Shown: positions 5,801 to 23,071 of the stretch, in pieces
Position numbering within the stretch: the first letter of the stretch is position 1
Layout of the letters: each line of letters begins with the position of its first letter
Assembly (NCBI GenBank): GCA_025350705.1
Contig: JANXXH010000014.1
Span: forward strand, 1 to 39,147
Direction: 5' to 3'
DNA length: 39,147 nucleotides
DNA from: Gallionella sp.
GTDB lineage: Bacteria; Pseudomonadota; Gammaproteobacteria; Burkholderiales; Gallionellaceae
Notes under the pieces: model-generated
What the model saw: only the letters and a program-made list of their open reading frames with translations
Database searches by the model: none
Told to the model about the DNA's origin: nothing
Program-made: the position numbers and the translations under genes

Positions 5801-5806
5801 GAACTG

Positions 5807-6762: not shown

Positions 6763-6776
6763 TGAAAGCTTTATAG

Positions 6777-7079
6777 ATGTGGTACGCAATCATCGGGCAA
6801 GATGTGCCGAACAGTTTGGACAAACGCCTGGCGGCTCGACCCGCGCATGTTGCGCGCTTGCAAGAACTACAGAACCAGGGTCGCCTGCTGCTGGCAGGCC
6901 CGTTCCCTGCGGTGGATGCCGTTGATCCGGGCGCGGCGGGTTTCACCGGCAGCCTGATCGTCGCCGAATTTGCTTCATTGCAAGCCGCACAAGACTGGGC
7001 AAAAGCTGATCCTTACATCACGGCAGGTGTATACGCCGACGTTCGAGTGCAGCCGTTCAGAAAAACCTTCCCTCAATGA
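6777..7079 (+). CDS. yciI: YciI-family protein
   Basis: A 100-residue protein of the YciI/YCII family, a small ferredoxin-like dimeric fold. Recognisable parts are the N-terminal strand [10 protein letters not shown], the [20 protein letters not shown] helix with the conserved His24, AGPFPAVD, and [17 protein letters not shown] near the end. A His-Asp pair has been proposed as a catalytic dyad in the family, but the reaction in cells is unknown. It sits directly behind yciB, as in many proteobacteria. Its stop overlaps the start of the BolA-like gene (ATGA). Confidence 0.92.
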
Positions 7080-7342
7080 ATGAATGCGAAACAAAGATGC
7101 GCGCGCGACTCGTCATGCTTGATCCGGTGCAGCTGGAAATCATCGACGAAAGCCACAAACACGCCGGACATGCCGGTGCGCGGGACGGCGGCGGACATTA
7201 TGTACTGCGCATCGTCTCGGCGAAGTTTGTCGGCAATAATACGGTTGCGCGTCACCGTATGATATATTCCGCTCTTGGAGAGTTGATGAAGCGCGAAATA
7301 CACGCCCTCACCATACAGGCATATACGCCCGATGAGAATTAG
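7076..7342 (+). CDS. BolA-family protein
   Basis: An 88-residue protein of the BolA/IbaG family. Family marks are the helix [19 protein letters not shown] with conserved His residues, [20 protein letters not shown], and the C-terminal [14 protein letters not shown]. BolA proteins pair with monothiol glutaredoxins in Fe-S cluster handling and some bind DNA; which role applies here cannot be told. The first ATG (7076) overlaps the yciI stop, implying coupling. Nearby genes for protein repair and folding suit a stress-related role. Confidence 0.92.
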
Positions 7343-7377
7343 CGGTTAATTTTTAATTTATTGAAGGGAATTCAAGC

Positions 7378-8166: not shown

Positions 8167-8188
8167 CAATGATCCACCATCAATAAGC

Positions 8189-8222
8189 AAACAAAGGACA
8201 CCTCATGGTGTCCTTTGTTTTT
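8189..8222 (+). terminator. Intrinsic terminator after the parvulin gene
   Basis: A perfect 14-bp stem pairs 8189-8202 with 8207-8220 around a TCAT loop, and a T-run (8218-8222) completes it. It separates the housekeeping operon from the surface-protein operon. Confidence 0.9.
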
Positions 8223-8403
8223 CCAAGGCTTATAGTTGAATGCACTACCCTGCTTAGCTTCGCCGATAACCAGAATTTTTTCTGCGATTTCGTATCGGCA
8301 TATCCTTTTTTAGACGTTATTTCAACAAATTGCGTCAGTTTTTCGTCACCCAGCAACCAACCGCCCTCTCAACACTTAAAAGCCACATTAGAAACGGCAA
8401 CTA

Positions 8404-8482
8404 TTATCTTGATTTTTCATGATTTTTATAATAATAATATGCTTGGCATGCTCCATGCGTTTAAGTAATTAGGTGAATTACG
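8404..8482 (+). promoter_or_regulatory. Candidate promoter and leader of the surface-protein operon
   Basis: The stretch 8223-8482 has no convincing gene; an 87-codon ORF at 8205-8468 begins inside the terminator and has no family features. The DNA becomes strongly AT-rich after about 8390. A perfect TATAAT lies at 8427-8432, with a poor -35 (TTATCT, 8404-8409) 17 bases before it. Transcription would start near 8440. AGGTGA at 8471-8476 is the only ribosome-site-like sequence before the first gene. AT-rich leaders of this kind are often H-NS/MvaT-type silenced, which is speculation here. Confidence 0.35.
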
Positions 8483-8497
8483 ATTATTAAAAATATT

Positions 8498-9625
8498 TTG
8501 ATAAAGAATAATTTAATTAAAATTTTAAGCGTCGTTTTTAGCAGCCTTGCTTGCACGCTAAAAAACAAGGGGGTATCTATCCGATTTGCTGGCCGCCTCA
8601 TATCTAGCTCCCTCACCTGCCAACTCGGCGTGTGGGTTTGTCTGTTGATGCTAACACCACAACTCAGCTGGGCGGTCGGCACGACGGCCGGCACCACCAT
8701 CTCCAACTCGGCCTCGCTGTCATACAGCATTGGCGGGATAGCGCAAGCCAGCATCACTTCTGTAGCCGTAACATTACTGGTAGACGAGAAGATCAACCTG
8801 ACTGTGGTCGGCGGCGTCACTACCAGTGTGGCGACCCCTGCAACGGCCCAAGCGACTGCCTTTACTGTAACCAACAACTCCAATAGCGCTTTGGACTTCA
8901 GCCTGACGGTCACCTGGGCGATAGCAGGCGACAATTTCGACCCCACAGCTTGCAGCGCATTCGTTGAAAGCGGCGCTACAGCAGGCTATCAGGCAGCGCA
9001 GGATATTGCCACTTACATAGATGAGTTGGCAGCAGGGGCGACAAAAACGGTTTATGCAGTGTGTGACATTCCTGCTGCATTGGGTTCTGGCAACACCGGG
9101 CTGGTGGGCCTGACCGCAACAGCCCAAGGCAACTTCAATGCGACGGGATACGTCGCAACAGCCGGCGCTCTGGGTGGAGTCATGACAGAAACGGCTGGTG
9201 CGAATACAGCGAACGTGGACATCTTGTTTGCTGACATAGCCGGTACCGAGGATATCGCGCGCGATGCAAAACACTCCGCCCACAACACCTACTCTGTCTC
9301 AATTCCAACGCTGACAATCACCAAGACCGTTGCCAGCGTGCTTGATCCGAGTGGCGGGTCAGTAGTGATGCCCGGCTCGGTGATCACCTACCAGATCGCA
9401 GTCGTGCTCACCGGCGCAGGTACGATTACCGGCTTGGTGATCACCGACCCGTTGCCCGCCAGCACCACTTATGTTCCAGGCAGCATCACTGTGAATGGCG
9501 TAACCAAGACCGATGCCGTTGATGCCGACAATGCACAGTTTTCCGCCAATACCGTTAACGTCTCGCTGGGGAATGTTGCCGCCCCTGCGAGCATAACTAT
9601 TACTTTTCGCGCAACGATCAATTGA
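8498..9625 (+). CDS. Secreted DUF11-type surface protein (first of the operon)
   Basis: A protein of up to 375 residues whose function I cannot name. The start is uncertain: the annotated TTG at 8498 has no ribosome site, whereas an in-frame ATT at 8483 lies six bases after AGGTGA. There is no in-frame ATG before residue 49. The N-terminus holds two hydrophobic stretches; the second (VWVCLLMLTPQLSWA) ends in a signal-peptidase-like site. The mature part begins TTISNSASLSYSIGGIAQ, a motif repeated in the proteins at 10348 and 11660. Residues about 270-375 form a DUF11 (TIGR01451-type) beta-sandwich: LTITKTVASVLDP, MPGSVITYQIAV, VITDPLPASTTYVPGSITVN. It is homologous along its length to the 10348 protein. 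A 15-base gap leads to the next gene. Confidence 0.8.
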   Translation: MIKNNLIKILSVVFSSLACTLKNKGVSIRFAGRLISSSLTCQLGVWVCLLMLTPQLSWAVGTTAGTTISNSASLSYSIGGIAQASITSVAVTLLVDEKINLTVVGGVTTSVATPATAQATAFTVTNNSNSALDFSLTVTWAIAGDNFDPTACSAFVESGATAGYQAAQDIATYIDELAAGATKTVYAVCDIPAALGSGNTGLVGLTATAQGNFNATGYVATAGALGGVMTETAGANTANVDILFADIAGTEDIARDAKHSAHNTYSVSIPTLTITKTVASVLDPSGGSVVMPGSVITYQIAVVLTGAGTITGLVITDPLPASTTYVPGSITVNGVTKTDAVDADNAQFSANTVNVSLGNVAAPASITITFRATIN

Positions 9626-9640
9626 TTGAAGGAGACCACT

Positions 9641-10141
9641 ATGCGTATTGTTAATTTACTGCTAACCACCACCCTGCTCGCCTTGCTAAGCAGCTTTTCA
9701 TTTAACGTGCATGCAGCTGAAGGCGCGATCAAGCTGACCAGCATCGCACAAGTCGAAATCGAAGTTACCGACAAAAAGGGCAACAAAACGCTCAAGCGCA
9801 GCACCGTCACCAAGGCCGTTCCGGGCACAGAAGTCATTTACACCACCACTTTCAAAAATGTCATCAACAAACCGGTTGACAAAAACTTCGTCATCGACAA
9901 CCCGATCCCGAACGACAGCGAATACAAAGGCGGCAGCGCATTCGGACCAGATTGCGAAATCCTGTTCTCGGTGGACGGCGGTAAGCAATTCGGCCACGCC
10001 GAGGAATTGAAGATCAAGGATGCGGACGGCAAAGAGCGCACCGCACTCGCCAAGGAATACACGCACATCCGCTGGATTTATAAAAAAGAATTGGCAGCAG
10101 GGAAATCCGGCGAAGTCGGTTTCCGCGCTGCCATCAAATAA
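9641..10141 (+). CDS. Small exported DUF11-like protein
   Basis: A 166-residue exported protein with signal peptide MRIVNLLLTTTLLALLSSFS up to about VHA-AE. The mature part is a single DUF11-like beta-sandwich: VPGTEVIYTTTFKNVINKPV, NFVIDNPIPNDSEYKGGSAF and a final strand ELAAGKSGEVGFRAAIK. The stretch with SVDGGKQFG and YTHIRWIY matches the C-terminus of the adhesin at 17230-20034 (SNDGGVTWT, ITHIRVNPKG). I chose the ATG at 9641 because GAAGGAG lies seven bases upstream; the frame opens five codons earlier. Lysine and acid content is higher than in its neighbours. It may be a soluble or surface-attached subunit. No function is known to me. Confidence 0.82.
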   Translation: MRIVNLLLTTTLLALLSSFSFNVHAAEGAIKLTSIAQVEIEVTDKKGNKTLKRSTVTKAVPGTEVIYTTTFKNVINKPVDKNFVIDNPIPNDSEYKGGSAFGPDCEILFSVDGGKQFGHAEELKIKDADGKERTALAKEYTHIRWIYKKELAAGKSGEVGFRAAIK

Positions 10142-10153
10142 GGAGTTACCCAA

Positions 10154-10276
10154 ATGAATAAATTTTATTCGACTTACCCCGGACGTTTCATGATGACCGA
10201 GCCGATGACGGATCCACCGTGGATCCGCTCGCCATTTTCTGAGCGGGGACTGAAAGTAGTTGCGGGCCCGCCTTGA
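10154..10276 (+). CDS. Possible 40-residue small protein
   Basis: This short ORF begins ATG 10154 with an AGGAG site eight bases upstream, overlapping the stop of the preceding gene. The spacing is as good as that of the flanking genes. It starts MNKFYSTYPGRFMMTEP and ends KVVAGPP. It has no signal peptide and no recognisable family. A perfect 9-bp inverted repeat (10209-10227) lies within it. Either it is a genuine small protein, or the ribosome site marks the relic of a truncated gene. I cannot decide from one sequence. Confidence 0.4.
   Translation: MNKFYSTYPGRFMMTEPMTDPPWIRSPFSERGLKVVAGPP
10209..10227. repeat. 19-bp perfect inverted repeat inside the 40-codon ORF
   Basis: CGGATCCAC (10209-10217) and GTGGATCCG (10219-10227) are exact reverse complements around one central base. 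As DNA it could bind a dimeric regulator; as RNA it forms a tight hairpin. No T-run follows, so it is not a terminator. Confidence 0.6.
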
Positions 10277-10347
10277 CTGAAAACTTTTGTATCTGTTGTT
10301 TGCAACAAACCGTATTTTTTAGCAGTGCTTTTCTAAGGAGTATCAAA

Positions 10348-11637
10348 ATGAAATCGATTAAAACAAGCATATTATCCAGACTCGCCGCACTGTTGTTCGG
10401 TGCGGCGTTGTTTGGTTTGGCCTCACAAAGCGCGCTGGCGTTAACCCAGTCCGGCACATCCATCACCAACAAGGCAACGTTATCCTACTCGGTTGGTGCT
10501 GTGGTGCAAACCGTTATAGAGTCAGCGCCACTTGGAAACTCAACTGCCGGTGCAGGCGCCGGTACTGTGACCAGTTTCACAGTGGATGACAAAGTCAATT
10601 TGACGGTATCCAACGGAACTGCTGCAAACGTAGCCCCCGGCGCGACCAATGTAAATTCGACAAAATTTACAATCACCAACAATGGTAACGCCACTCAGGG
10701 TTACAACCTGACTGCGGCCAATACGGCAAGCACTACAGTGGGCGCAGGTGTTACCGACAACTTCGACTCGGGTGCGTTTTCGATCTACCTGAATACCGGT
10801 TGCGATGGAGTAACAGTCGGCGCTCTGGTTGCTGGTGGTGTTATTAATTCCGTGGCAGCAGGTGCTCCTGTTTGCGTGTTTGTTCAGGCTGCCAGCATCC
10901 CGTTAACCCAAGTAAACAACGATGCGGCGGTAATAACCCTGAAGGCCGTGACAACCTGGCCGAACCCATTGGCAGCAGCTGAAGAACCCGCCGCTGTAGT
11001 TGCAAATGCCGTGGTTCTCAATAACTCTGGCTCTGCAAATACAGCCGGTGTGGATGTCGTGTTTGCCGACATTGCCGGTGTGGCTGCTGGCGATGTGGCG
11101 ACCGATGGCGCTCATTCCGCCTATGGCGCGTACAAGGTGGCAACTGCCGTGCTTACTGTAACTAAAACTGCCACATTGTTGTGCGATGCGGTCAATGGCG
11201 TGACTAACCCGAAGAACATCCCGGGTTCCATGACGGGATGGACGATCACGATAAGCAATGGGGCGGCTGGTGCGCCTGCTACGCTGACAACCATTTCCGA
11301 TGCGCTTTCCGTCGCCCAGTTGACGTTAGATCTGGGTCAAGCTGCCGCACTGACTGTTCCAACCAATGCTGCAACCTGCATAGCAGGTCCTGGCACCAAA
11401 GGCTTCAAGGTGACGGTTCCGGTAGCGCGGATTCTGGGTGGATCTGCTGCTGGTTCCAATACCGTCAGCTATTTCACTACCGCGAGCGATGGGGACGGCG
11501 TTGAATTTACCTCACCCAATATCACGGCCACATTTGCCACCATCCTGCCTATCGATGGTGGTACCGGTCATGCTACGGCAGGGCTGTTGAATGCGGGTGA
11601 AAGCGTGTCGGTGATGTTCAACACCTTGGTGCAGTAA
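10348..11637 (+). CDS. Secreted DUF11-type surface protein (paralogue of the 8498 gene)
   Basis: A 429-residue exported protein. The signal peptide is residues 1-31 (MKSIKTSILSRLAALL... ALA), and the mature chain opens with GTSITNKATLSYSVGAVVQ. Shared blocks with the 8498 protein run along the whole chain: VDDKVNLTVSNG versus VDEKINLTVVGG, NTAGVDVVFADIAG versus NTANVDILFADIAG, then HSAYGAYKV and LTVTKTATLL. The C-terminal ~150 residues are DUF11-like. Composition is rich in Ala, Thr, Val and Gly, with few cysteines, typical of beta-rich surface proteins. The ATG at 10348 has AAGGAG upstream; the frame opens 25 codons earlier without one. It is probably a repeated structural unit of the surface system. 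Confidence 0.82.
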   Translation: MKSIKTSILSRLAALLFGAALFGLASQSALALTQSGTSITNKATLSYSVGAVVQTVIESAPLGNSTAGAGAGTVTSFTVDDKVNLTVSNGTAANVAPGATNVNSTKFTITNNGNATQGYNLTAANTASTTVGAGVTDNFDSGAFSIYLNTGCDGVTVGALVAGGVINSVAAGAPVCVFVQAASIPLTQVNNDAAVITLKAVTTWPNPLAAAEEPAAVVANAVVLNNSGSANTAGVDVVFADIAGVAAGDVATDGAHSAYGAYKVATAVLTVTKTATLLCDAVNGVTNPKNIPGSMTGWTITISNGAAGAPATLTTISDALSVAQLTLDLGQAAALTVPTNAATCIAGPGTKGFKVTVPVARILGGSAAGSNTVSYFTTASDGDGVEFTSPNITATFATILPIDGGTGHATAGLLNAGESVSVMFNTLVQ

Positions 11638-11659
11638 CAAGGGTGCAGTAATAAAGCAC

Positions 11660-14600
11660 ATGACGCACATAGCTACATCCATGCTCAACACCCGTCCGGC
11701 TTGCCGGGCGGGTGCTGGGCTTTTGCGTGTGTTGTCCCGGCTTGCCGGGGCAGCCCGCTTTTTTGTAGGCGCCCTGAAAGAAATCCAGTGCGTCTACAAA
11801 AAAGCGTTACTCATTTTTTCGCTGTGCATACTATCTTCTGCCGCGTTGTCTGCTACCACACCGAGCACGCTGATCAGCAACACCGCGACCGCTAATTACA
11901 CGATTGGCGTGACCCCGTTGTCCGGCACGAGTACGGCCAACGTAACCACTGCCGCTTGTACCGCCATCGGGGTGAAGATCGAGTTGTTGCAATACATCCC
12001 GCCTGCTCGTGCTGCTCAAGCTCCAGTAACTGCAAAGACTGAATCGGTGCAGCCAAGCGCGTACTCAGCCAGCGGCGCGCTTGCCGGGCCTTTTACCCCG
12101 CTTGCCAATCCGACCCTGCTGGGCAACGCCTTACCGACAGCGTTACCAGCCAGTCTGCTGCTCGCCCCGCTCAGCAATCCTTCTTCGGCTTACTTGCGCA
12201 ACGAGCCGATCTTTGTGCGCGTGACCAGCTTTGATGCGAATACCAATCCCGCCGTGGCCGACACCGTCGTGGTGACTTTGACCACCAGCGGCGGTGACAG
12301 CATCGTGGTACAACTGACTGAGACCGGGGTATCCACCGGGGTATTCGTCGGTGCAGTGCCCTCCAACACCGCAGGCCTTGTTATCAACGACGGCAACATC
12401 ACCGTATCGGTGCACAACGAAATCATCACCGGCACTTACACGGATAATTGCGCTGCCGCGGTCACCAGCACCAGCAACGCGCTGATGGACCCTTACGGCA
12501 TCCTGTTCGATTCGGCGACCGGCGTGCCGGTCAACGGCGCAACGATCAGCTTGGTCGATTCAGTGACCAGCTTGCCCGTCACGGTACACTGTGACGATGG
12601 AGTGACTGTGCTGACGCAACCGGTCATCTCCGGCTCGCCTACCAATTGCGACGCCACCATGATCGCGGGCGGATTCCGCTTCCCGCAAGTACCTGCAGGC
12701 AGCTTCAAGTTCGCAGTCACACCACCTCCCGGGAACGGCTTCCCCTCTGCTGTAGCGGCAGCAAGCCTGCCCGCCTCAGTCGGATCGCCGCTTGTCGCAC
12801 CTGTTATCTGGGGCAATCCGACTCCGATACTTGGCGGTTCTTATGGTGGCACTTTCTCGCTGTGGGGTCCGGCGCTGAAAATCGATATTCCGGTGGACTC
12901 CGGATTCACGGTCATGAGCATACAAAAAACCGCCGACAAAACCGTGGTCGGCACCGGCGAGTTTGTGCCTTACACACTCAGCATCGCCAACAACACCCCC
13001 GCACCTCTGGCAAGCGCACTGATCGCCGATCATGTGCCGCCAGGTTTCCGCTACCAGAAAGGTTCTGCCCGCTTGAATGGTGTGGCGATGCCTGACCCGA
13101 CGGTCTCCACCGATGCACGCACGCTCACCTTCAGCATCAACATCCCCGCAGCCAGTACCGTAGCTGTTAGGTATGTGCTGGAAGTGACTCCCGGTGCGCA
13201 CACCGGCACGGCTGAAAATACCGCTGCCGCCACCGGCGGCCTCACTTCCAACACTGCGCACGCCAGCGTGGTCGTGCGCGAAGATCTGTATCGCAACAAA
13301 TCTTTCCTGATCGGCCGCGTGATCGATGGTTCTTGCGACAAGATGGACAGCGATACAAAAGGTATGACTAACGCGCGCATCGTATTGGAAGATGGCACTT
13401 ACATATTGACCGATCAGGAAGGCCGCTGGCACATCGACAATCTGCGTCCTGGTACGCACGTGGTGCAGCTCGATCTGGATTCATTGCCCAAGGATTACGA
13501 AGTGGTCGCCTGCGAAAAGAACACCCGCTTTGCCGGACGCAAGTATTCGCAGTTCGTCAACCTGCGCGGCGGCACTCTCTGGCGCGCCGATTTCCACGTG
13601 CAAAAGAAAGCGCCCGGTTCTGTGCGCATCACGCAAATACTGAGCACGCAGCAACAAGATAACAAGACCGTCGTGTCGCTGGCATTGGAAAGCGGCGCCG
13701 ATGTGACCGGCTACTCGGCTACCGTGATGCTGCCGGAACTCGCCAAATATGTCCCCGGCAGTGCAAAGCTGAATGGCACACCTATCGCCGACCCAGACAA
13801 GGTCGATCAAGCACTGATCTTCCACAACCTTGCGCGCCCCACACAATGGCAGGATCAATATTCTTTTGCAGTTACTGACGTCGCGCCGAACGCGACGATC
13901 AAATCGCTGGTGCGCTTCACCCCGCCGGGCCGCGCCGCACAAAACATTCCCGTTGCGTCTGTCACCTTGGCCGATCATGCACCGGCCAGCGCGCAAACTT
14001 TTGCGAATGTGCTGGTCGAAGCCGTTGATGTTCGTCCACCAAAAACACCGCATGACGATGATCCTACCCATCTGCTGGAAATCCTGCCTTACGATGAAGC
14101 GTGGCTGGCCGGCGCGCAACCGGGCACCGAATGGTTGCATCCGCAGGAAACTTTCCTGCCTGCCCTGCCAGTCATCAAGGCTGCAATAAAACATGCTCCC
14201 GGCCAAACCACCAAGCTGAGACTGAACGGCGACGATGTCAGCCCGCTGTATTTTGACGGCGATAAAACCAATGCGGCACACACTGTATCGCTGGCCTTGT
14301 GGAGCGGTATCCACATCAAGGATGGAGACAACCGCCTGGAGTTGATCGTGACGGATGCCTCCGGCAAGGAAGTCAGCCGCACCATGCGCAACATCCATTA
14401 CTCGACTGCTCCGGATCACGTTGAATTCGTGCCGCAGCAATCCCGCCTGTTCGCCGACGGCAAGACACGCCCGATCATCGCCGTGCGTTTGTTCGACAAG
14501 GACGGCGTGCCGATCCGTCGCGGCGTCAACGGCGAGTTCATGTTGAACGAACCGTACCGCTCCTATGACCGCCGCGAAGGCATAGATCGCGAACCACTGG

Positions 14601-17230
14601 CCGGACGCGTCGGCGGCAAGGCACGCTTCGAGGTGAAGGGCGACGGCCTGGCGATGATCGAACTGGAGCCGACTACCCAGACCGGCGAAGCCGTCCTCAA
14701 CTTCCAGTTCGATGACAAGCGCAAACAGGAAGTACGCGCATGGCTGGAACCGGGACAACGCGACTGGATACTGGTCGGTTTTGGCGAAGGCACGCTGGGA
14801 CACAAGACCCTGTCCGGCAACATCCAGGAACTCCAGGCTGCAGAAGCCGATACTCAACTGTTCGATAATGACAAGCTGGCGTTCTACGCCAAGGGAAGCA
14901 TCAGGGGCGATTACCTGCTGACCCTGGCCTATGACACTTCCAAGGAAACAGGAAACAAATCGCTCAAGCAAGCCGTCGACCCGACGCAGTATTACACGCT
15001 GTATGCCGATGCGACCCAGGCGAATTTTGATGCGGCCAGCTCCAGCCGCCTGTATGTAAAACTGGAACGCAAACAGTTCTACGCGATGTTCGGCGATTAC
15101 GACACCGGACTGACCGTCACCGAGTTGTCGCGCTACAGCCGCACCTTGAACGGCGTGAAGAGCGAATACAAGGGCGAGACCGTGGGCTACAACGCCTTCG
15201 CCTCGGTCACTGCCCAAGCCTTCATCAAGGATGAGATCCCCGGCAACGGCACATCGGGCGTGTACAAACTATCGCGCGGCAACCTGATGGCCAACTCCGA
15301 CAAGATACGCATCGAGACCCGCGACCGCTTCCAGTCGCAAAACATCGTCAGCACGCAAAACCTGACGCGCTATCTTGATTACAACATCGATTACGACCAG
15401 GGCACTTTGACTTTCCGCGAACCGGTCGCCTCGCGCGATGGCAACTTCAATCCAACCTACATCGTCGCCGAATATGAATCGGCCGATCCTTCCGACCAGA
15501 AGGCAACCATGGGCGGACGCGGCAGTTTCAAACCGACCAAGCAACTTGAGATCGGCGCGACCCTGGTGCATGAAGGCACGGTGGGCGCAAGCGGAAATCT
15601 GTCAGGCATGGATGCCACTTACCAACTGGATGACAAAACCAAGCTGCGCGCCGAAGCGGCAGCGACCAACCGCGACATTGCAGGCAACCCTGTCAACGGC
15701 AATGCATGGCTGGGTGAAGTGACACACCACGAAGAACAGTGGGACACCAAAGTCTATGTACGCGAAGAGTCCGGAGGATTCGGCATTGGCCAACAGGCCG
15801 CCTCGGAGATCGGCACACGCAAAGTGGGAGTGGATGGCCGCTACAAATTATCCGATACGACACAACTGCAAGGCCAAACCTATCAACAAGACAGCCCGAC
15901 CAGCGGGACGAAAAACAACTTGGTGGAAGGACGCGTCGACAACACCATCAGCGACGCGCTGAGCGCCTATTACGGCGGACGCACCGCGCATGACCAAACT
16001 ACAGCGGGCAACGCGCAAAGCAATCAACTGCTCGGCGGCGCGGCATACACGATGATGGACAAGCGCCTTTTGTTACGCAGTGCGGCCGAGATCGGCGGCG
16101 GCAGCGCAGGCAGCAGCACGATGCCGAACCGGTTGATACTGGGTACAGACTACAAGGTGACCGAGCAAAGCAAGATCTTCGCCGAACAGGAATTCGCACG
16201 CGGCGAAAACATTTCCGCCAACACCACCCGCGCCGGTGTGCGCACCCAGCCGTGGTCGGGCAACGAGATGTCGGCCTCGGTGGGTGACAACATCACCAAC
16301 GACGCCGAGCGTTTGTATACCAACCTCGGCATGGTGCAACGCTGGCAGGTCACCGAACACTGGCAAACCAACTTCAGTGTCGATCGCAGCCAGACCCTGC
16401 ATAACACTGCCACACCGCTGAACTCCAACACCCCGTTGCCCTCAGGCTCGGGTGGCGTCTCGCAACTGCCTTCCGCAGCCGGGGACTACACCGCCTCGGC
16501 GGTATCTGCCGCTTACAATGACAAATTGTGGAGCTGCGACGGGCGCATCGAGATTCGCAATTCCGACCTCGACCAGCAAAGGAACCTGCAATTCGGCGCA
16601 CAGCGCAACCTCGATCAAGGCCGCTCGGTGGCTGCCGGTTACACGATGCGCCTGGTGAACAGCGCGATCCGCTATACGCGCAACAACGACCTGCGTTTGT
16701 CGTACGCACACCGTCCGAATGACAGCCAGTGGGTGTGGTTCGACCGCGCCGATTACATCACGCAGGCCACCGAGACCGCGGGTTCCTCGCTCAATGGCGC
16801 AAAACTGGTGAACAACCTGAACGCCAACTACCTGCCCACCCGCCATACCCAGATCGCGATGCAATACGGCGCCAAGTATGTGCAGGATCTCATCGATGGC
16901 ACCGACTACAAAGGCTACACCGACCTGATCGGTTTGGAAGTCCGCCACGACCTGACGCAAGACTGGGACATCGGCACGTTCGGCTCGGTGATGCGCTCGG
17001 TGAATTCCGGCGTGCGCAGCTACGGTTACGGGGTATCGGTCGGCTACAAGGTGGTGGACAACATGTGGCTGTCGATGGGCTACAACGCGCGCGGCATGGA
17101 TGACCGCGACTTCAGCAATGCATCCTATCGCGCGCAAGGCCCTTACCTCACGCTGCGCATGAAAGTGGATCAGGACACCTTCGGTTTGAACAAGAGTGGC
17201 AAAACAACCCGCCCGATGACTACTGAGTGA
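11660..17230 (+). CDS. Giant surface protein: DUF11/Ig-like modules joined to a C-terminal beta-barrel
   Basis: The ORF encodes 1856 residues; I cannot name its function. The start is uncertain: ATG 11660 and ATG 11681 precede two hairpins, and the Sec signal (KKALLIFSLCILSSAALSA, residues 47-65) lies far inside, so GTG 11729 or CTG 11774 may be used. After cleavage comes TPSTLISNTATANYTIG, the motif shared with the 8498 and 10348 proteins. Further modules are a prealbumin/SdrD-like start at about 277 (DPYGILFDSATGVPVNGATI), DUF11 at about 419-540, a second regulatory-like domain at about 550-615 (TDQEGRWHIDNLRPGTH), another DUF11-like domain at about 670-775, and an invasin-like Ig domain at about 920-1040. 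From about 1045 to the end, alternating amphipathic strands with Asn/Asp turns resemble an outer-membrane barrel, the last strand being YLTLRMKVDQDTF. It is probably the membrane anchor of the operon's products. Its stop overlaps the next start (TGATG). Confidence 0.82.
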   Translation: MTHIATSMLNTRPACRAGAGLLRVLSRLAGAARFFVGALKEIQCVYKKALLIFSLCILSSAALSATTPSTLISNTATANYTIGVTPLSGTSTANVTTAACTAIGVKIELLQYIPPARAAQAPVTAKTESVQPSAYSASGALAGPFTPLANPTLLGNALPTALPASLLLAPLSNPSSAYLRNEPIFVRVTSFDANTNPAVADTVVVTLTTSGGDSIVVQLTETGVSTGVFVGAVPSNTAGLVINDGNITVSVHNEIITGTYTDNCAAAVTSTSNALMDPYGILFDSATGVPVNGATISLVDSVTSLPVTVHCDDGVTVLTQPVISGSPTNCDATMIAGGFRFPQVPAGSFKFAVTPPPGNGFPSAVAAASLPASVGSPLVAPVIWGNPTPILGGSYGGTFSLWGPALKIDIPVDSGFTVMSIQKTADKTVVGTGEFVPYTLSIANNTPAPLASALIADHVPPGFRYQKGSARLNGVAMPDPTVSTDARTLTFSINIPAASTVAVRYVLEVTPGAHTGTAENTAAATGGLTSNTAHASVVVREDLYRNKSFLIGRVIDGSCDKMDSDTKGMTNARIVLEDGTYILTDQEGRWHIDNLRPGTHVVQLDLDSLPKDYEVVACEKNTRFAGRKYSQFVNLRGGTLWRADFHVQKKAPGSVRITQILSTQQQDNKTVVSLALESGADVTGYSATVMLPELAKYVPGSAKLNGTPIADPDKVDQALIFHNLARPTQWQDQYSFAVTDVAPNATIKSLVRFTPPGRAAQNIPVASVTLADHAPASAQTFANVLVEAVDVRPPKTPHDDDPTHLLEILPYDEAWLAGAQPGTEWLHPQETFLPALPVIKAAIKHAPGQTTKLRLNGDDVSPLYFDGDKTNAAHTVSLALWSGIHIKDGDNRLELIVTDASGKEVSRTMRNIHYSTAPDHVEFVPQQSRLFADGKTRPIIAVRLFDKDGVPIRRGVNGEFMLNEPYRSYDRREGIDREPLAGRVGGKARFEVKGDGLAMIELEPTTQTGEAVLNFQFDDKRKQEVRAWLEPGQRDWILVGFGEGTLGHKTLSGNIQELQAAEADTQLFDNDKLAFYAKGSIRGDYLLTLAYDTSKETGNKSLKQAVDPTQYYTLYADATQANFDAASSSRLYVKLERKQFYAMFGDYDTGLTVTELSRYSRTLNGVKSEYKGETVGYNAFASVTAQAFIKDEIPGNGTSGVYKLSRGNLMANSDKIRIETRDRFQSQNIVSTQNLTRYLDYNIDYDQGTLTFREPVASRDGNFNPTYIVAEYESADPSDQKATMGGRGSFKPTKQLEIGATLVHEGTVGASGNLSGMDATYQLDDKTKLRAEAAATNRDIAGNPVNGNAWLGEVTHHEEQWDTKVYVREESGGFGIGQQAASEIGTRKVGVDGRYKLSDTTQLQGQTYQQDSPTSGTKNNLVEGRVDNTISDALSAYYGGRTAHDQTTAGNAQSNQLLGGAAYTMMDKRLLLRSAAEIGGGSAGSSTMPNRLILGTDYKVTEQSKIFAEQEFARGENISANTTRAGVRTQPWSGNEMSASVGDNITNDAERLYTNLGMVQRWQVTEHWQTNFSVDRSQTLHNTATPLNSNTPLPSGSGGVSQLPSAAGDYTASAVSAAYNDKLWSCDGRIEIRNSDLDQQRNLQFGAQRNLDQGRSVAAGYTMRLVNSAIRYTRNNDLRLSYAHRPNDSQWVWFDRADYITQATETAGSSLNGAKLVNNLNANYLPTRHTQIAMQYGAKYVQDLIDGTDYKGYTDLIGLEVRHDLTQDWDIGTFGSVMRSVNSGVRSYGYGVSVGYKVVDNMWLSMGYNARGMDDRDFSNASYRAQGPYLTLRMKVDQDTFGLNKSGKTTRPMTTE
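11689..11764 (+). terminator. Tandem hairpins at the 5' end of the giant gene
   Basis: Stem 1 pairs 11689-11700 with 11703-11714 (12 bp, one G-T pair, TT between). Stem 2 pairs 11733-11741 with 11744-11752 (9 bp, one G-T pair). Both share the core CCGGCTTGCCGG. T-rich stretches follow each: CTTTTG after the first, and six T at 11759-11764 after the second. They look like one or two imperfect terminators between the 10348 gene and the signal peptide of the giant. They may attenuate transcription and would mean the true start lies downstream. Confidence 0.5.
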
Positions 17231-20034
17231 TGACTATGAAAAAACTTTTTAGAATATTTGTTCTGTTGGTGCCGCTGACCGGATTGGTTCTGTGGGGCGA
17301 GGATACCTATGCCGCCGCAGCTTGCACCTCCGTAGCTACAGGTAACTGGAGCGCGCAGACGACATGGAGCGCGGCCGGGACCGGATGCGCAGGGGCACCG
17401 GGTGGCATTCCGGGTGCAGCTGACAGCGTGACCATTGCTGACCTCACTACGGTTACTGTCGACGTCGCTTCTGCAGCCGCTTCGGTGTCGATTCCCGCAG
17501 GCAATCAATCTTCCACATTGCAACTTAGCTCCACGTTGAGCGTGGGAGGCGCCATCACCGTATACGGACCCACCGGCGGCGGCGCAACCAAGACTCTTAG
17601 CGTGGGTGCAGGCACCCTTAACGCCGCGAGTATCACCATCAACGGCGGCGGAGGTGGTGGTAACGCCGGAGTGGTAAGCGTGAGTACCGGCACCATCAAC
17701 GTCAGCGGCTCGATCGGCTTCGCGGGCACTGCTTCTGACACGCTGTTGACTTCCACCGGGGCCAGCACGATAAATATCGGCGGCGACCTCGGCAACGGGG
17801 GCACGCTCACCACCACCAAGACCGGCACCATTAATTTCAACGGCACGGTTGCGGCGCAAAACATGGGGGCATACACGACTTACAACAACGTCACCGTAAA
17901 CAACACCAACGGTGCAGGGGTGGTCACCCTGCTTGGCAACGCCGCCATGACCGGAGCGCTGACAGTTACGAGCGGTACGCTCAGCACTTCGACGTTCACT
18001 CTGGGCGTGGGGGGGAACTTCACTGTCAATGGCACCGTTTCAGGAACCGGCGCTATCACCCTGAGCGGCACCGGCACCACCATCGACGGAACGGGATCGG
18101 TGACCAACACCGCGACACTTACGGTCAGCACCAGCGCGAAATCAGTTCTCTCAACGGCCAACCTTACGATTGCCAGCCCGATCGCGATCTCCGGGGCTAT
18201 CACCGTCACCAACAATGGAATAATCACCACAACCGGGATCACCGGCTCGGTGCCCGGCTCGACGTGGGTAAACGCCGCGAATTCGACGCTGAATATTTCC
18301 GGGCCGTTACTGGCAACCGGCACATTGACCGCTTCGGCGAATCCCAACACTGTCAACTATGCCGGTGCGGCACAGACGGTAACGCTCCCTTCCGGTGCGC
18401 CGGCAACCTATTACCACCTGACGCTCAGCGGCAGCGGCGTCAAGACCCTGCCCGCGACCGCCATGACAATCTCGGGGAACTTCACGATGTCCGGGACGGC
18501 CACCACCACAGCTGCCGCTGCGCTGACGGTAGGTGGCAATTTCATCCTCGGTAGCGGTACCACGTTCACTGCAAGCACTTTCAACCATTCTGTCGCCGGC
18601 AACTTTACAAATAATGGCACCACCTTTACCGCGAACACCAGCACCATCACCCTGAATGGTGCTGCTGCTCAAGTTATTGGCGGCACGGCAGCAACCACTT
18701 TCAACAATCTGACGATCAACAATGCCAGCGGAGTAACGTTAGGCAACAGTCAGACCGTGAGCAGCACACTGACGCTGACTAGCGGCACGTTTGCAGTGGG
18801 GGCGTACACCCTGACTTTGAACGGCCCAACCATCGCAGGCACGCCCGCCAACCTGAGCACGACTTCCTCATCCAGCCTGGTGTTCGGCGGAACTTCAGCC
18901 GGTGTTCTGATACCGAGCAGCGTTGGCGCGCTGAACAATCTCACCATCAACAATGCCAACGGAGTCACGCTGAGCGGCAGTCCGGTGTTGAGCGGCACCC
19001 TGACGCTGACCAGCGGGATCGTTACCACCGGCGCAAACATTCTGGAAATAACATCGAGTTGCTCCACAGGTATAGTCGGTGCCAGCGCCACTACCTATGT
19101 GCTTGGTAATCTGAACCTCCATTATCCGACGCTGAATCCCGGTACCACCACCTGCACTTTCCCCATCGGTACTACGGGTGTTTACGCTCCTGCGGCAATT
19201 GCGATGGTCAACGTTTCATCCACGCTGGCGAACAGCAGCCTCACTGCACGTACTGACACACCCGACCATGTGGACACCACAGCAAACGCATCCGGTGTCA
19301 ATCCGGCCAAGAGCGTGAACCGTTACTGGACATTGACAGCCGGAGGTTCGTTGGCCTTTGCCACATACAACACCACCTTCACTTTTGTGGCCGGCGATGT
19401 CGATGGCGGCGCAGCCACAGGCAGTTTCATCATCGGACTCAAGAGCAGCGGCGTGTGGAGCTATCCGGCCATGGGCGCAAAAAACGCCCTCAACACCACG
19501 GCGACCGGCATGACCCAGGCGGGTGGATTCGGCGTGTTTGTCATCGGCGAGCGCATCATGCCTTCTCTCACGATACTTAAAACAGTAGCGGTGTATTCCG
19601 ATCCGGTGAATCTTCTGGTCAATCCGAAATTCATACCCGGCGCGGTCGCGCAATACGCCGTCATCTCCAGCAACTCCGGCGGCCCGGTGGATAACAATGC
19701 GACAGTCATCACCGATCCGGTTCCGGCCAACACACTGTTGTATGTTAATGACATTGGTGGCGCAGGCTCAGGACCCGTTCTGTTCACCCAAGGTGCAACT
19801 ACCAGCACACTGACCTACACCTTTACCTCGCTCAGCAATACGACCGACGACCTGTCATTCTCGAATGACGGAGGCGTCACATGGACTGCTGTACCGACAT
19901 TCAACGTGACAACTGGTTGCGATACCACCGTTCCGGCCATCACACATATCCGCGTCAATCCGAAGGGCGCATTTATCGGCAGCATCGGTCCCAATCCAAG
20001 CTTCCAGCTTACATTCCGTGTCTGTGTGCAATGA
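17230..20034 (+). CDS. Beta-helix-like adhesin with C-terminal DUF11-like domain
   Basis: A 934-residue exported protein. The signal peptide reads MKKLFRIFVLLVPLTGLVLW and ends near TYAAA. It is followed by GNWSAQTTWSAAG and PGAADSVTIADLTTVTVD, a start typical of bacterial secreted beta-helix proteins. Residues about 70-600 are Thr/Gly/Ser/Ala/Asn-rich short strands with clear internal repeats: LTINNASGVTLGNSQTV and LTINNANGVTLSGSPVL, each followed by a GTLTLTSG-type strand. The last ~160 residues form a DUF11-like domain (LTILKTVAVYSDP, VITDPVPANTLLYVNDIGG) ending in ITHIRVNPKG, like the small protein at 9641. No autotransporter barrel is present, so it must be anchored by a partner, plausibly the giant, whose stop it overlaps. 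ATG 17236 is an alternative start. Function as an adhesin is inference. Confidence 0.82.
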   Translation: MTMKKLFRIFVLLVPLTGLVLWGEDTYAAAACTSVATGNWSAQTTWSAAGTGCAGAPGGIPGAADSVTIADLTTVTVDVASAAASVSIPAGNQSSTLQLSSTLSVGGAITVYGPTGGGATKTLSVGAGTLNAASITINGGGGGGNAGVVSVSTGTINVSGSIGFAGTASDTLLTSTGASTINIGGDLGNGGTLTTTKTGTINFNGTVAAQNMGAYTTYNNVTVNNTNGAGVVTLLGNAAMTGALTVTSGTLSTSTFTLGVGGNFTVNGTVSGTGAITLSGTGTTIDGTGSVTNTATLTVSTSAKSVLSTANLTIASPIAISGAITVTNNGIITTTGITGSVPGSTWVNAANSTLNISGPLLATGTLTASANPNTVNYAGAAQTVTLPSGAPATYYHLTLSGSGVKTLPATAMTISGNFTMSGTATTTAAAALTVGGNFILGSGTTFTASTFNHSVAGNFTNNGTTFTANTSTITLNGAAAQVIGGTAATTFNNLTINNASGVTLGNSQTVSSTLTLTSGTFAVGAYTLTLNGPTIAGTPANLSTTSSSSLVFGGTSAGVLIPSSVGALNNLTINNANGVTLSGSPVLSGTLTLTSGIVTTGANILEITSSCSTGIVGASATTYVLGNLNLHYPTLNPGTTTCTFPIGTTGVYAPAAIAMVNVSSTLANSSLTARTDTPDHVDTTANASGVNPAKSVNRYWTLTAGGSLAFATYNTTFTFVAGDVDGGAATGSFIIGLKSSGVWSYPAMGAKNALNTTATGMTQAGGFGVFVIGERIMPSLTILKTVAVYSDPVNLLVNPKFIPGAVAQYAVISSNSGGPVDNNATVITDPVPANTLLYVNDIGGAGSGPVLFTQGATTSTLTYTFTSLSNTTDDLSFSNDGGVTWTAVPTFNVTTGCDTTVPAITHIRVNPKGAFIGSIGPNPSFQLTFRVCVQ

Positions 20035-20055
20035 TCATCTAACAAGGCATTCACC

Positions 20056-21051
20056 ATGAAAAAACCGGCATTCTTACTGTTATTTTCCTTGCTGCTGAAC
20101 AGTGTCCCCCTTGCACTAGCCGATGAAGAGGCACAGTCCGAATATTTTCAACAAATCACAGCGCTGCAACACCGCGCTGAAAAACTGGCTTCCAATGGAC
20201 TCGATTCGAACAATTATCATCTCGTCAAGTCACGCACCTGGCTGAACTTTGCCCTTAGCGAAGCATACGATAAGGATACCAGCGGATTCATCCCTGCCGC
20301 CATCGCACAAGCCGCGACATCGCTGGATGCATTGGAAAATAAACAAGCTGTCATCAGCATGGATACTCCGACACAAATATCGGGCAGCGAATCGGTGCGT
20401 CCAGATTTATGGGACAAGATCGCCACGCTGAAAAAACACACCAAGTTTTCGTGCGCACAGCGCCCCATCGCAGAAGCCGAAGTCTATCTGGTGTGGATAG
20501 GACACGAAAAATACGAATCCGGCTGGAGCCATGCAGAATCTTATGTGAACGGCGCCGAAGACCGTATTTACGCGGCAAAAGTGGCGATCGACAACTGTAC
20601 CCCGCCTGCTGTAAAACTGGCTCAGCCACCCCCGCCCCTGGAAAAAATCACACTTTCGGGTGATGCGATGTTCGCCTTTAATAGCGCAAAGCTGATCCCA
20701 TCCGCGTTGTGGCGCCTCGACACGCTGGCCGACGACATCAAGACGGCGGGGCAACTGGAAGAGATCCTTCTGGTCGGGCACACCGACAACATCAGCAGCA
20801 AGGGATATCCGAAACACAACCAGATAATTTCCGAACAGCGCGCCGAAAGCATCAAGGAATACCTGATCGGCAAAAACATCCCGGCTGAGAAGATTCACGC
20901 CAGCGGCGCAGGCTCGACGCAACCGTTGGTGAAATGTTCGACCAAACTAAAAAAAGCAAAGCTGGTCGCTTGCCTGCAGCCGAACCGGCGCGTGGAAATC
21001 ATTTTGCACGGAGTAAAAACAACCGCCGTCAACAAGGGGTCGGCAAAATGA
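20056..21051 (+). CDS. OmpA-domain peptidoglycan-binding protein, copy 1
   Basis: A 331-residue exported protein. The signal peptide is MKKPAFLLLFSLLLNSVPLA ending at ALA-DE. Residues about 25-185 form a helical domain I do not recognise (NYHLVKSRTWLNFALSEAY, VRPDLWDKIATLKKH) and include cysteines likely to pair. Residues about 200-325 are an OmpA-like domain: GDAMFAFNSAKLIPSALWRL, the GHTDN loop, EQRAESIKEYL and LQPNRRVEII. The Asp in GHTD and the Arg in QRA, which hold diaminopimelate of peptidoglycan in characterised OmpA domains, are both present. It would sit in the periplasm attached to the cell wall and may brace the surface assembly encoded upstream. AAGG precedes the ATG. It is the most divergent of three tandem copies. 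Confidence 0.9.
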   Translation: MKKPAFLLLFSLLLNSVPLALADEEAQSEYFQQITALQHRAEKLASNGLDSNNYHLVKSRTWLNFALSEAYDKDTSGFIPAAIAQAATSLDALENKQAVISMDTPTQISGSESVRPDLWDKIATLKKHTKFSCAQRPIAEAEVYLVWIGHEKYESGWSHAESYVNGAEDRIYAAKVAIDNCTPPAVKLAQPPPPLEKITLSGDAMFAFNSAKLIPSALWRLDTLADDIKTAGQLEEILLVGHTDNISSKGYPKHNQIISEQRAESIKEYLIGKNIPAEKIHASGAGSTQPLVKCSTKLKKAKLVACLQPNRRVEIILHGVKTTAVNKGSAK

Positions 21052-21107
21052 ATCGCTACACGGCTGTGCATAGCCAGGTAGAAAACTCACCGATGCATCA
21101 AGCATGA
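21048..21107 (+). CDS. 19-codon mini-ORF between OmpA-domain copies 1 and 2
   Basis: The mini-ORF starts at ATG 21048, overlapping the stop of copy 1 as ATGA. It ends at TGA 21105-21107, overlapping the start of copy 2 as ATGA. AAGGGG lies eight bases before it, while copy 2 itself has no clear ribosome site. The peptide (MNRYTAVHSQVENSPMHQA) has no known family. It probably serves to deliver ribosomes to copy 2 by re-initiation; a peptide function is possible but unsupported. Confidence 0.35.
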   Translation: MNRYTAVHSQVENSPMHQA

Positions 21108-22078
21108 TTAAAAGCACTCTCTCCCTGGTGTTCGTTATCCTGTTAGGGAGCATCTCCTTTGCCCATGCAGGCTATGAATCAAATGCCCAACAACTGCGAC
21201 AAATCGAATCTTTGCAGCTCCGCGCCGACAGGCTGACCTTCGGCAAGATCGGCCCGAACAATTACCATCTCGCCAAGGCTCACATCTGGCTGGATCTGGC
21301 ACGCAGCGAATATTACGAACTCGAAAGCGACGGCATTGTTTACGCCGCCACCACGCAAGCAGAGGCATTGCTGGATGCGCTGGAGAAAAAACAACCCAAC
21401 ATCACCATGAATACTCCGGTGCAAATATCGGGCAGTGAACCGGTGCGTCCCGATCTATGGGACAAGATCACCACGCTAAAAAAACACGTTAAATTTCCTT
21501 GCGGGCAACGCTCCGTCGCCGAAGCTGAAGTTCACCTGATATGGGCCGGACACATCAAACTGGAATCCAATTGGGGGCATGCAGAAGCATATGCGGACAG
21601 TGCGGAAGCGCTGCTCAAAGATGCTCAATCCTCCATCAACAAATGCGTTGCCAAGATGCCTGTCATTGAAAATGTCACGGTGTCCAGCGATGTGTTTTTT
21701 GCCGCTGGTGATGCGACACTGGAGCCGTCTGCGCCCGCGCGCATCAACCAATTGATCGACAGCATCAAGCTGGATACTATGCTGAAAGATGTCATGCTGA
21801 TCGGGCACGCCGACCGTCTGGGCGACGATAAATATCCAGAGCTCAATCAATTGATTTCCTTGCAGCGTGCCGAAAGCACCCAACAAATTTTGCTCGACAA
21901 GGGCATCCCGAAGGACAAGATACGCGTCAAAGGTTTAGGCTCGACCCAGCCACTGGTCAAGTGCTCGACGAAGCTGAGCAGGGCAGAGCAAATCGCTTGC
22001 CTTCAGCCGAACCGGCGCGGGCAAATTATTTTGCGCGGGGTAAAATTTGCGGGTACCCCTAAGGAGCCGGTAAAATGA
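21104..22078 (+). CDS. OmpA-domain peptidoglycan-binding protein, copy 2
   Basis: A 324-residue paralogue of the preceding gene with a signal peptide (TLSLVFVILLGSISFAHA-G). The helical N-terminal domain keeps NYHLAKAHIWLDLARSEYY, TPVQISGSEPVRPDLWDKI and RSVAEAEVHLIWAGH. The OmpA domain keeps the peptidoglycan-contact Asp (GHADRLG) and Arg (LQRAES), although GHTD has become GHAD. NRRGQIILRG closes the fold. It is much closer to copy 3 than to copy 1, including identical DNA stretches (for example around 21523-21566 and 22549-22592). It has no obvious ribosome site and is likely translated by coupling to the mini-ORF that overlaps its start. Confidence 0.9.
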   Translation: MIKSTLSLVFVILLGSISFAHAGYESNAQQLRQIESLQLRADRLTFGKIGPNNYHLAKAHIWLDLARSEYYELESDGIVYAATTQAEALLDALEKKQPNITMNTPVQISGSEPVRPDLWDKITTLKKHVKFPCGQRSVAEAEVHLIWAGHIKLESNWGHAEAYADSAEALLKDAQSSINKCVAKMPVIENVTVSSDVFFAAGDATLEPSAPARINQLIDSIKLDTMLKDVMLIGHADRLGDDKYPELNQLISLQRAESTQQILLDKGIPKDKIRVKGLGSTQPLVKCSTKLSRAEQIACLQPNRRGQIILRGVKFAGTPKEPVK

Positions 22079-22134
22079 AAAAATTCAAAGCTGCGATTAA
22101 TCTACCAATAATTTCACACATCAAGCATGATTAA
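22075..22134 (+). CDS. 19-codon mini-ORF between OmpA-domain copies 2 and 3
   Basis: ATG 22075 overlaps the stop of copy 2 as ATGA, and AAGGAG lies eight bases upstream. The frame runs over the start of copy 3 (ATG 22127) and stops at 22132-22134. The peptide MKKFKAAINLPIISHIKHD is unrelated in sequence to the first mini-ORF but has the same length and placement. Copy 3 has no ribosome site of its own. Confidence 0.35.
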   Translation: MKKFKAAINLPIISHIKHD

Positions 22135-23071
22135 AAGAGCCCTCTCTCTGGTGTTTGCTATCCTGATAGGGAACATTTCCCTTGTCCATGCAGACGGGGA
22201 ATTACTGCCCAAGCGACTGCAACAAATCGAAGCACTGCAACGCCGTGCAGACAAGCTGGCCTTCGGCGAGCTCGGTGCGGACAACTACCATCTCGCCAAG
22301 GCCCGCACCTGGCTTGATCTGGCACGCAGCGAATATTACGACAACGAAAACAACGGAATCATCCCTGACGCTATCGGGCAGGCAAAGACCCTACTAAATG
22401 CGCTGGAGAAAAGACAACCCGACATCACCATGGATACCCCGGTGCAAATAACGGGCAGCGAAGCGGTGCGTCCCGATCTGTGGGACAAGATCGCCACACT
22501 GAAAAACCACGTTAAATTTTCCTGCGGGCAGCGCTCTGTCGCCGAAGCCGAAGTTCACCTGATATGGGCCGGACACATCAAACTGGAATCCAGCTGGCGA
22601 CATGCGGAATCGTACACAAACCGCGCGGAAGAGCTGCTCAATGAAGCACTAAACTCTATCAACGACTGCGTTGCCCAGATGACGGCCATTGTAAACATCA
22701 CGCTATCAAGTAAAGTATTATTTGTCTTTAGCGAAACGAGGCTGAGACCACCCGCGCAACGACACCTCAACGAATTGGTCAACAGCATCAAGATGGCGAC
22801 TACACTGGATGAGGTCGTGCTGGTCGGTCACGCCGACCGCATTGGCATCGACAAATATCCTGAGCGCAGCCAATTAGTTTCCGAACAACGTGCCGAGAGC
22901 GCCAAACGATTCCTGGTCAGCAAAGGGATCCCGGCAGACAAGATACACACCAGCGGTGCGGGGTCATCACAACCACTGGTGCAATGTTCGACCAATCTCA
23001 GCAGGGAGAAGCAGATCGATTGCTTGCAGCCGAACCGACGCGTGCAAATAATTTTGCGCGGCAAGAAATAG
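22127..23071 (+). CDS. OmpA-domain peptidoglycan-binding protein, copy 3
   Basis: A 314-residue exported protein with signal peptide (LSLVFAILIGNISLVHA-D). The N-terminal helical domain keeps NYHLAKARTWLDLARSEYY and VRPDLWDKIATLKNHVKFSC. The OmpA domain keeps GHADRIG, EQRAESAKRFL, the Cys pair around CSTNLSREKQIDC, and NRRVQIILRG. Contact residues Asp and Arg for peptidoglycan are present. The 19 bases around its start (CATCAAGCATGATTAAAAG) are the same as those at copy 2, marking the duplication unit. It is the last gene of the surface operon and faces purL. Confidence 0.9.
   Translation: MIKRALSLVFAILIGNISLVHADGELLPKRLQQIEALQRRADKLAFGELGADNYHLAKARTWLDLARSEYYDNENNGIIPDAIGQAKTLLNALEKRQPDITMDTPVQITGSEAVRPDLWDKIATLKNHVKFSCGQRSVAEAEVHLIWAGHIKLESSWRHAESYTNRAEELLNEALNSINDCVAQMTAIVNITLSSKVLFVFSETRLRPPAQRHLNELVNSIKMATTLDEVVLVGHADRIGIDKYPERSQLVSEQRAESAKRFLVSKGIPADKIHTSGAGSSQPLVQCSTNLSREKQIDCLQPNRRVQIILRGKK

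Follow-up and report, generated by a model that had tools for sequence, protein, structure and literature searches.

A conserved gene module of DUF11-type proteins and a giant predicted outer-membrane barrel in Gallionella and other bacteria

This report concerns eight consecutive plus-strand genes, here called A to H (positions 8498-23071), on a 39,147-nucleotide contig of Gallionella sp., a member of a family of iron oxidisers (JANXXH010000014.1 of assembly GCA_025350705.1), which we refer to as the window and which belongs to a 2.69-Mb genome of 161 contigs and 87% completeness. The conserved unit within this group consists of the four genes A to D; E is variable, and the genes of the OmpA-domain proteins F, G and H are optional. 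D, a giant protein with an unusually large predicted barrel, is the core of the system, and the small protein B is its most regular companion. We tentatively propose, with a confidence that falls just short of even, that A, B, C and D, together with E and the OmpA-type anchors, form an outer-membrane export and docking system.

Composition and conservation of the module

In an initial annotation made from the sequence alone, eight exported-protein genes had been placed on one strand with short gaps or overlaps. The list of open reading frames (ORFs) of the window agrees with this: all eight products are of exported type, the intergenic spacings from A to H are 0, 131, 22, -4, 21, 52 and 48 nt, and a hydrophobic segment resembling an export signal is seen by eye, unscored, close to the start of every product. 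Gene A (8498-9625, +; 375 aa, start provisional) and its exported paralogue C (10273-11637, +; 454 aa) have a common N-terminal domain, homologous between the two in profile comparison (probability 100), and A continues into a C-terminal DUF11-type domain. B (9626-10141, +; 171 aa) is a small exported protein with a single DUF11-type domain. D (11660-17230, +; 1856 aa, start provisional) joins an N-terminal part with DUF11 and CarboxypepD_reg-like domains to the giant predicted barrel. E (17227-20034, +; 935 aa) is a surface-type protein with a variable, repeat-rich N-terminal part.

The assignment to DUF11 varies in strength from protein to protein. A contains a C-terminal TIGR01451 repeat (38.9 bits, cut-off 24) and scores 20.6 in one scan and 25.0 in another against Pfam DUF11 (cut-off 24.6); B matches TIGR01451 at 20.2 bits, under the cut-off; C has no family match at E<=1 in profile scans, and E no significant profile match. 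In D, DUF11 (residues 420-526; 12917-13237, +) lies above its cut-off at 31.3 bits, and CarboxypepD_reg remains sub-threshold (28.7 bits, cut-off 32.3). When the C-terminal domains of A, B and C, the terminal part of E and DUF11 of D were compared with each other, all 10 of 10 pairs were related (probability 94.6-99.6). The DUF11 set of the initial annotation, which comprised A, B and C, thus stands, but it has to be extended, as E also ends in the C-terminal DUF11-type module common to the other three.

With a profile of the C-terminal part of D, at least 554 matching stretches were obtained in named genomes, of which the best 80 were fetched. These include relatives of D from Gallionellaceae, Comamonadaceae, Sphingomonas, Thalassolituus, Lysobacter, Woeseiaceae and Povalibacter, as well as from Mariprofundaceae, Desulfuromonadales, Desulfobacterales, Nitrospirota and others; D occurs mainly in Pseudomonadota and Thermodesulfobacteriota/Myxococcota. 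Its nearest named relatives are found in Gallionella, in Sideroxydans and on one contig of a zetaproteobacterial metagenome-assembled genome (MAG). Within the genus of the window, a relative of D occurs in 10 of 61 genomes and is of the close type in nine. The order A-B-C-D-E-OmpA recurs complete in the genus loci L041-L044 and likewise in L045, where A falls outside the extracted sequence. L046 and L047 carry A-B-C-D only.

Altogether, 97 loci of relatives were examined in addition to the window. This set includes near relatives and three genomes with two loci each, all counted (L046/L049, L047/L050 and L051/L052); L067, on the same contig as L041, was omitted, and L009 and L068 apparently represent one contig. 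D is present in 96 (L048 lacks it), and at least 4 kb before D could be inspected in 78. Among these 78, 72 have B and 73 have a DUF11-like protein immediately upstream of D; 70 combine the two, and the set A-B-C is found in 55. The eight loci that do not combine both features comprise L052, L054, L055 and L056, in which the N-terminal part and the barrel of D are separate genes, L078, in which no A-C were recognised within 6.7 kb upstream of a full-length D, and L096, L124 and L131, each of which fails one of the two criteria (B, or a DUF11-like protein before D). A further group of 15 loci has B and C and no A by the criteria used, and five of these (L049, L050, L051, L053 and L058) belong to a distant second type of D.

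The association is also seen at the level of whole genomes. In an evenly drawn sample of 398 Pseudomonadota genomes, D (E<=1e-10) was detected in 58 and B (E<=1e-20) in 38, with both in 31, D only in 27 and B only in 7. Where the match to D is strong (>600 bits; 39 genomes), B accompanies it in 30, compared with 8 of the 359 others, the genomes not being phylogenetically independent of each other. In one family, f72, taken as zetaproteobacterial because its match G168:C72 coincides in coordinates with contig L060, D occurs in 22 of 61 genomes. The genomes with B and no match to D are G174, G175, G203, G300, G317, G351 and G444; no D-sized relative was found around B in G317, G444 and G175 with a longest-first gene calling, which may overlook short genes and did overlook B in G444. 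The B-like genes of G317 and G175, both near-complete genomes, lie at L149 7201-7686 and L151 6439-7581.

The initial annotation had proposed a single eight-gene assembly, the members of which should not occur independently in related genomes. That the genes belong together is borne out by the conserved order in the 78 loci and by the co-occurrence of B and D in the sampled genomes, and A to D do mostly occur together, with the seven genomes that have B without D and the locus L078 as exceptions. The proposed size of the assembly has to be reduced: the order A-D is kept across phyla, from Gallionellaceae through Sphingomonas and Thalassolituus to Desulfuromonadales and Nitrospirota, but E is variable and the OmpA genes come and go.

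Some loci point to movement between lineages. The zetaproteobacterial MAG contig L060 carries A to E (4577-14705) at 53-61% G+C between flanks of 39-49%, and adjoins a transposase-like ORF recognised by eye; in a quick tree, its D is nested among those of Gallionellaceae. The contig may therefore represent a recent transfer, or may be misbinned. On plasmid p4 of Acinetobacter haemolyticus (L146 3276-15641), a small DUF11 gene, short ORFs, a DUF11 gene, a giant DUF11 gene, an OmpA gene and another DUF11 gene follow each other beside a transposase, in an order that matches the module; the underlying plasmid search gave 24 records, of which only 2 covered 80% of the query. As a separate observation, a Phyllobacterium locus (L148 1-13520) encodes a large DUF11 protein (about 3550 aa) and a D-like protein that bears the annotation TonB-dependent receptor; both genes precede a siderophore-interacting protein and exbB-exbD-tonB.

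The giant protein D and its link to OmpA domains

For residues 660-1856 of D, an AlphaFold2 model based on an alignment of 75 rows reached a mean pLDDT of 79.6 and a pTM of 0.64 (the alignments A2, A3 and A4 used 75, 61 and 46 selected rows, respectively, rather than all loci). The model contains 41 strands of at least 6 residues from residue 1067 onward, and the last 32 of these (1265-1836) are each at least 10 residues long. Our reading of the C-terminal part (residues 1067-1836; 14858-17167, +) is a putatively closed barrel with between 32 and about 40 strands, which would exceed most known barrels in strand number. The giant with a C-terminal barrel that had been predicted in the initial annotation is thus supported by the structure model, which replaced a strand count from hydrophobic periodicity that proved too noisy. 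Weak, sub-threshold Pfam matches of D relatives to outer-membrane barrels are consistent with this reading, and no solved barrel matches D by sequence among the PDB profile matches listed.

In the window, D and E are followed by three genes for OmpA-domain proteins, as had been annotated: F (20056-21051, +; 331 aa, OmpA domain at 20668-20958), G (21104-22078, +; 324 aa, 21695-21985) and H (22127-23071, +; 314 aa, 22718-23011). Each begins with a D-associated N-terminal domain, for which we coin the name OmpN. The OmpA domains (PF00691; 60-64 bits, cut-off 27.2) carry, in the motifs GH(T/A)D and QRAES, the conserved Asp and Arg residues of PF00691 peptidoglycan anchors; OmpA domains bind peptidoglycan.

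The connection of these domains with D becomes apparent from its relatives. Of 96 relatives, 33 carry an OmpA domain within D (a laxer profile gives 35 of 91). It always lies before the barrel and, where an N-terminal match is listed, after that match, with the usual motifs in nearly all cases; Pfam confirms it in D of L120 (3e-17) and L147 (1.1e-10). A separate OmpA or OmpN gene, on the strand of D and at most 7 kb from it, is present in 12 of 96, among which L051 and L052 carry OmpN only and L046 has its OmpA gene about 6 kb from D. Separate OmpA genes outside this count occur at three more loci: the window, plasmid locus L146 and L045, where the gene lies more than 7 kb away. No D (0/96) has both the internal and the separate form, and 51 of 96 have neither by the profiles used, including all Sphingomonas D examined and some D at contig ends. 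A strict either/or of internal and separate OmpA was therefore rejected, and the anchor is not essential. As relatives bear OmpA within the giant itself, the OmpA link to the giant, suggested initially from gene neighbourhood, is real. Furthermore, because a peptidoglycan-binding-type OmpA domain sits there in relatives, the N-terminal part of D is probably periplasmic. In two loci of the set, OmpN without OmpA follows directly after D and has a lipobox-like start when inspected by eye (L051 11125-11805, L052 1920-2546); OmpN may be the true partner of D and OmpA an addition.

The shared C-terminal register and candidate mechanisms

Protein E is built from a constant C-terminal DUF11-type module (in the window residues 779-935; 19561-20031, +) and exchangeable surface domains. 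In the genus loci, only the last ~160 residues are conserved, and the length ranges from 935 aa in the window to 2866 aa. A domain scan of 17 E proteins, that of the window included, identified in their N-terminal parts Ice_binding (L060, L065), CshA_NR2 (L097), Beta_helix with SdrD_B (L082), SpaA_3 (L080), GEVED (L086), eight DUF7933 stretches (L066) and nine DUF11 stretches (L099). The E of the window had been described as a beta-helix-like adhesin, a description that found no confirmation, since no profile indicates a beta-helix in it. In the Sphingomonas loci L101, L104, L122, L129, L134 and L138, E is reduced to approximately the module alone (154-176 aa); other Sphingomonas E ORFs are longer, with unsure starts. 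L101, from Sphingomonas sp. Root710, combines A-B-C-D with an E of 156 aa, and L120, from Thalassolituus alkanivorans, combines A-B-C-D with an E of 1013 aa.

The ends of A, B, C and E follow a common register. Counting one protein per locus and group, with grouping by best profile, an aromatic residue (F/Y) occupies position -6 in 212 of 231 proteins (A 55/60, B 72/78, C 52/55, E 33/38), and it is mostly accompanied by V/A at -4, I/V/L at -2 and a polar residue at -1. All four proteins of the window fit, with the ends FRATIN (A), FRAAIK (B), FNTLVQ (C) and FRVCVQ (E). As a control, six distinct DUF11 proteins with complete ends from genomes without D were inspected; none (0/6) has the register, and five end in a hydrophobic stretch with arginines, a kind of tail that goes by the name IPTL-CTERM. 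In a structure search, A (C-terminal part, E 0.027) and B (E 0.33) weakly matched the 123-residue 'OmpA-like domain-containing protein' 9ifr_A of the PDB, which may be a DUF11-type structure.

In the export and docking system that we propose, A, B, C and E would cross the inner membrane by Sec and would then be recognised via the C-terminal DUF11-type domain, the last strand of which lies at the carboxyl end (aromatic-x-V/A-x-I/V/L-polar). Once recognised, they would be passed through D or docked on D, a very large outer-membrane barrel whose DUF11-containing part would reside in the periplasm and which would be held to peptidoglycan by its own OmpA domain in some lineages, or by the separate OmpN-OmpA proteins F-H here. 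E would present its exchangeable domain outward, and A and C could be the more abundant structural parts, in view of a possible attenuator before D. The initial annotation had seen no enzyme, transporter or regulator among the eight genes, which holds for enzymes and regulators, but the giant D may itself be a transporter. A more far-reaching version, about which we are somewhat more doubtful, regards A-B-C-D as an undescribed export system similar to type 9 secretion, with a barrel of more than 30 strands, a peptidoglycan anchor either built in or encoded nearby, recognition of DUF11-type C-terminal domains with their fixed register and display of exchangeable surface proteins, which would have arisen outside Bacteroidota and would be spreading horizontally.

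The 41 strands predicted for D compare with 36 in the SprA barrel of type 9 secretion. Unlike SprA, the D chain has a DUF11 part and, in a third of its relatives, an OmpA domain, and no PorV, motor or ring gene was recognised in the A-H unit. D of the window has no match to the SprA model TIGR04189 at E<=1 in an NCBIfam scan, and no SprA chain appeared in two PDB profile searches (among the 2 matches of one and the best 60 of 65 of the other). Type 9 secretion is a system of Bacteroidota, in contrast to the mainly pseudomonadotal and thermodesulfobacterial/myxococcal distribution of D. The likeness to that system, as described in PMC10994853, would lie in a giant outer-membrane translocon and a constant C-terminal domain on varied cargo, with substrates targeted by a seven-stranded beta-sandwich C-terminal domain, to which the constant module of E with its shared register may be compared.

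Several observations weigh against an export and docking function. The unit contains no recognisable energy source, chaperone or gate, and in a model with the pTM given above the closure and orientation of the barrel are putative. In the second type (L049-L051, L057 and L058), proteins in the positions of A and C end 1-3 residues past the register and the B-like proteins bear a tail; one E-like protein of this type (L051) fits. On plasmid p4, the region upstream of D is broken up into several short ORFs, and only the last DUF11 protein has the register. Barrel genes without A-C exist (L052, L054-L056, L078), 27 of the 58 genomes with any D match have no strong B, and more than half of the D examined do without either form of OmpA or OmpN. 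The register itself could reflect common descent of the DUF11 strand.

Other explanations account for parts of these data. D could be a strut tied to peptidoglycan within a static envelope scaffold, with A-C as periplasmic decoration, E anchored and no transport involved, which would fit the OmpA domain fused to D or encoded beside it and the finding that none of the eight genes encodes a motor, a chaperone or an ATPase. We nevertheless judge such a scaffold unlikely, since the N-terminal parts of E are surface-type domains, a strut needs no barrel of the predicted size, and a C-terminal register common to four protein groups suggests recognition. A chaperone-usher-like fibre, in which A and C would polymerise by donor-strand exchange, with E as tip adhesin, B as cap or starter and D as usher, is more improbable still. 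Like D, the ushers of such pili form a large outer-membrane platform and serve an adhesin with a constant C-terminal domain, a layout that E resembles, and A, C and D have a similar N-terminal strand motif, as seen by eye. Ushers are 24-strand barrels, however, a number exceeded by the predicted strands of D; moreover, neither D at E<=1 nor the genome, at 87% completeness, gave a match to Usher (PF00577), and the genome likewise has no PapD-type chaperone (PapD_N, PF00345), the Escherichia coli control being positive in both cases. Archaea, according to PMC9715654, also have donor-strand filaments, the assembly of which presumably proceeds differently from the chaperone-usher pathway, and these lend the fibre some plausibility.

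The order of parts in D invites comparison with type Va autotransporters, which consist of an N-terminal passenger followed by a C-terminal barrel of 12 strands. The N-terminal part of D could be such a passenger, displayed outside via its own barrel, and a long N-terminal extension does lie ahead of the hydrophobic segment of D; this reading is quite implausible given the predicted barrel, which with at least 32 long strands far exceeds 12, the peptidoglycan-binding-type OmpA that precedes the barrel in one third of the relatives, and the separate genes for the two parts of D in L052 and L054-L056. No autotransporter Pfam family matches D of the window (E<=1) or five relatives (E<=0.1), and Pfam plug and barrel families of TonB-dependent receptors were also unmatched in D of the window and five relatives, although some distant relatives are annotated so. 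Least probable of all, and already disfavoured by the gene order conserved across phyla, is an ordinary lineage-specific adhesin cluster with no common mechanism, even though OmpA domains are common and DUF11 also occurs in unrelated repeat proteins. Such repeat proteins, which share the Pfam domain and are often long repeat arrays, occurred in 7 of the 10 genomes inspected that have no match to D. In AtaA-TpgA of Acinetobacter, a surface autotransporter adhesin is encoded together with an OmpA-type anchor. The scores of F-H against the TpgA model (66-72 bits) stem mainly from the OmpA domain and stay far below its cut-off of 350, and no trimeric autotransporter was recognised in the A-H unit. 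The fibre, sheath or surface layer suggested in the initial annotation finds no direct support; a fibre or S-layer as the main claim was set aside, the data pointing neither way, and type 11 secretion was rejected, as the paper with the largest number of DUF11 mentions, PMC12282271, in the part consulted, deals mainly with DUF1194, a different domain. None of the full-text literature matches listed describes this gene set, subscription papers and bioRxiv preprints lying largely outside that search.

No function has been assigned to the family DUF11 (PF01345), which here is part of a constant set of four genes that includes the one for the giant predicted barrel. As this module is found in the growable genera Sphingomonas and Thalassolituus, a role of the DUF11-type domain as a sorting or docking signal is directly testable. 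If the domain has such a role at the outer membrane, Pseudomonadota and other phyla would carry a further export route, at present annotated as 'DUF11 domain-containing protein' and 'OmpA family protein'.

A hairpin at the start of D and the surroundings of the operon

Near the start of D, a terminator-like hairpin with a ten-pair stem, followed by CCGCTTTTTT, is located at 11731-11754 (+) inside the D frame, which stays open through it; the full element occurs once in the genome. In the window, a terminator scan gave 5 sites compared with 4.5 expected, and a promoter scan 3 compared with 3.2, and the hairpin is therefore notable only through its conservation. Among 81 D starts scanned, 13 have the hairpin, 12 from Gallionellaceae and a weak one in L089, compared with 1 of 324 control stretches inside D; the count includes L041 and L067, which are one contig, and the hairpin of L043 is at another position. 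Only L044 lacks it among the close-type Gallionellaceae scanned, and it is also absent from L060 and L065. Judged by eye, paired changes distinguish the stems of L041, L046, L047 and the window from each other. An attenuator that lowers D relative to A-C is a possible function.

The operon is preceded by a gene for a PpiC-type isomerase (7378-8166) and followed by a purL-like minus-strand gene, recognised by eye, both of which lie outside the unit. The ppiC gene also precedes the operon in L041-L044, L064 and L066, remained unmatched at distant loci (the ppiC profile matched 7 proteins) and is separated from A by a terminator-like stem on the minus strand at 8189-8220. PpiC was therefore rejected as a member of the system, and its locus is probably merely the insertion site. 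An ORF at 8205-8468 overlaps this stem, has no Pfam match and is probably not a gene. Further upstream, at 811-3704 of the window, an ArsR-like regulator is followed by several AHSA1/SRPBCC-like proteins in a row, as identified by eye.

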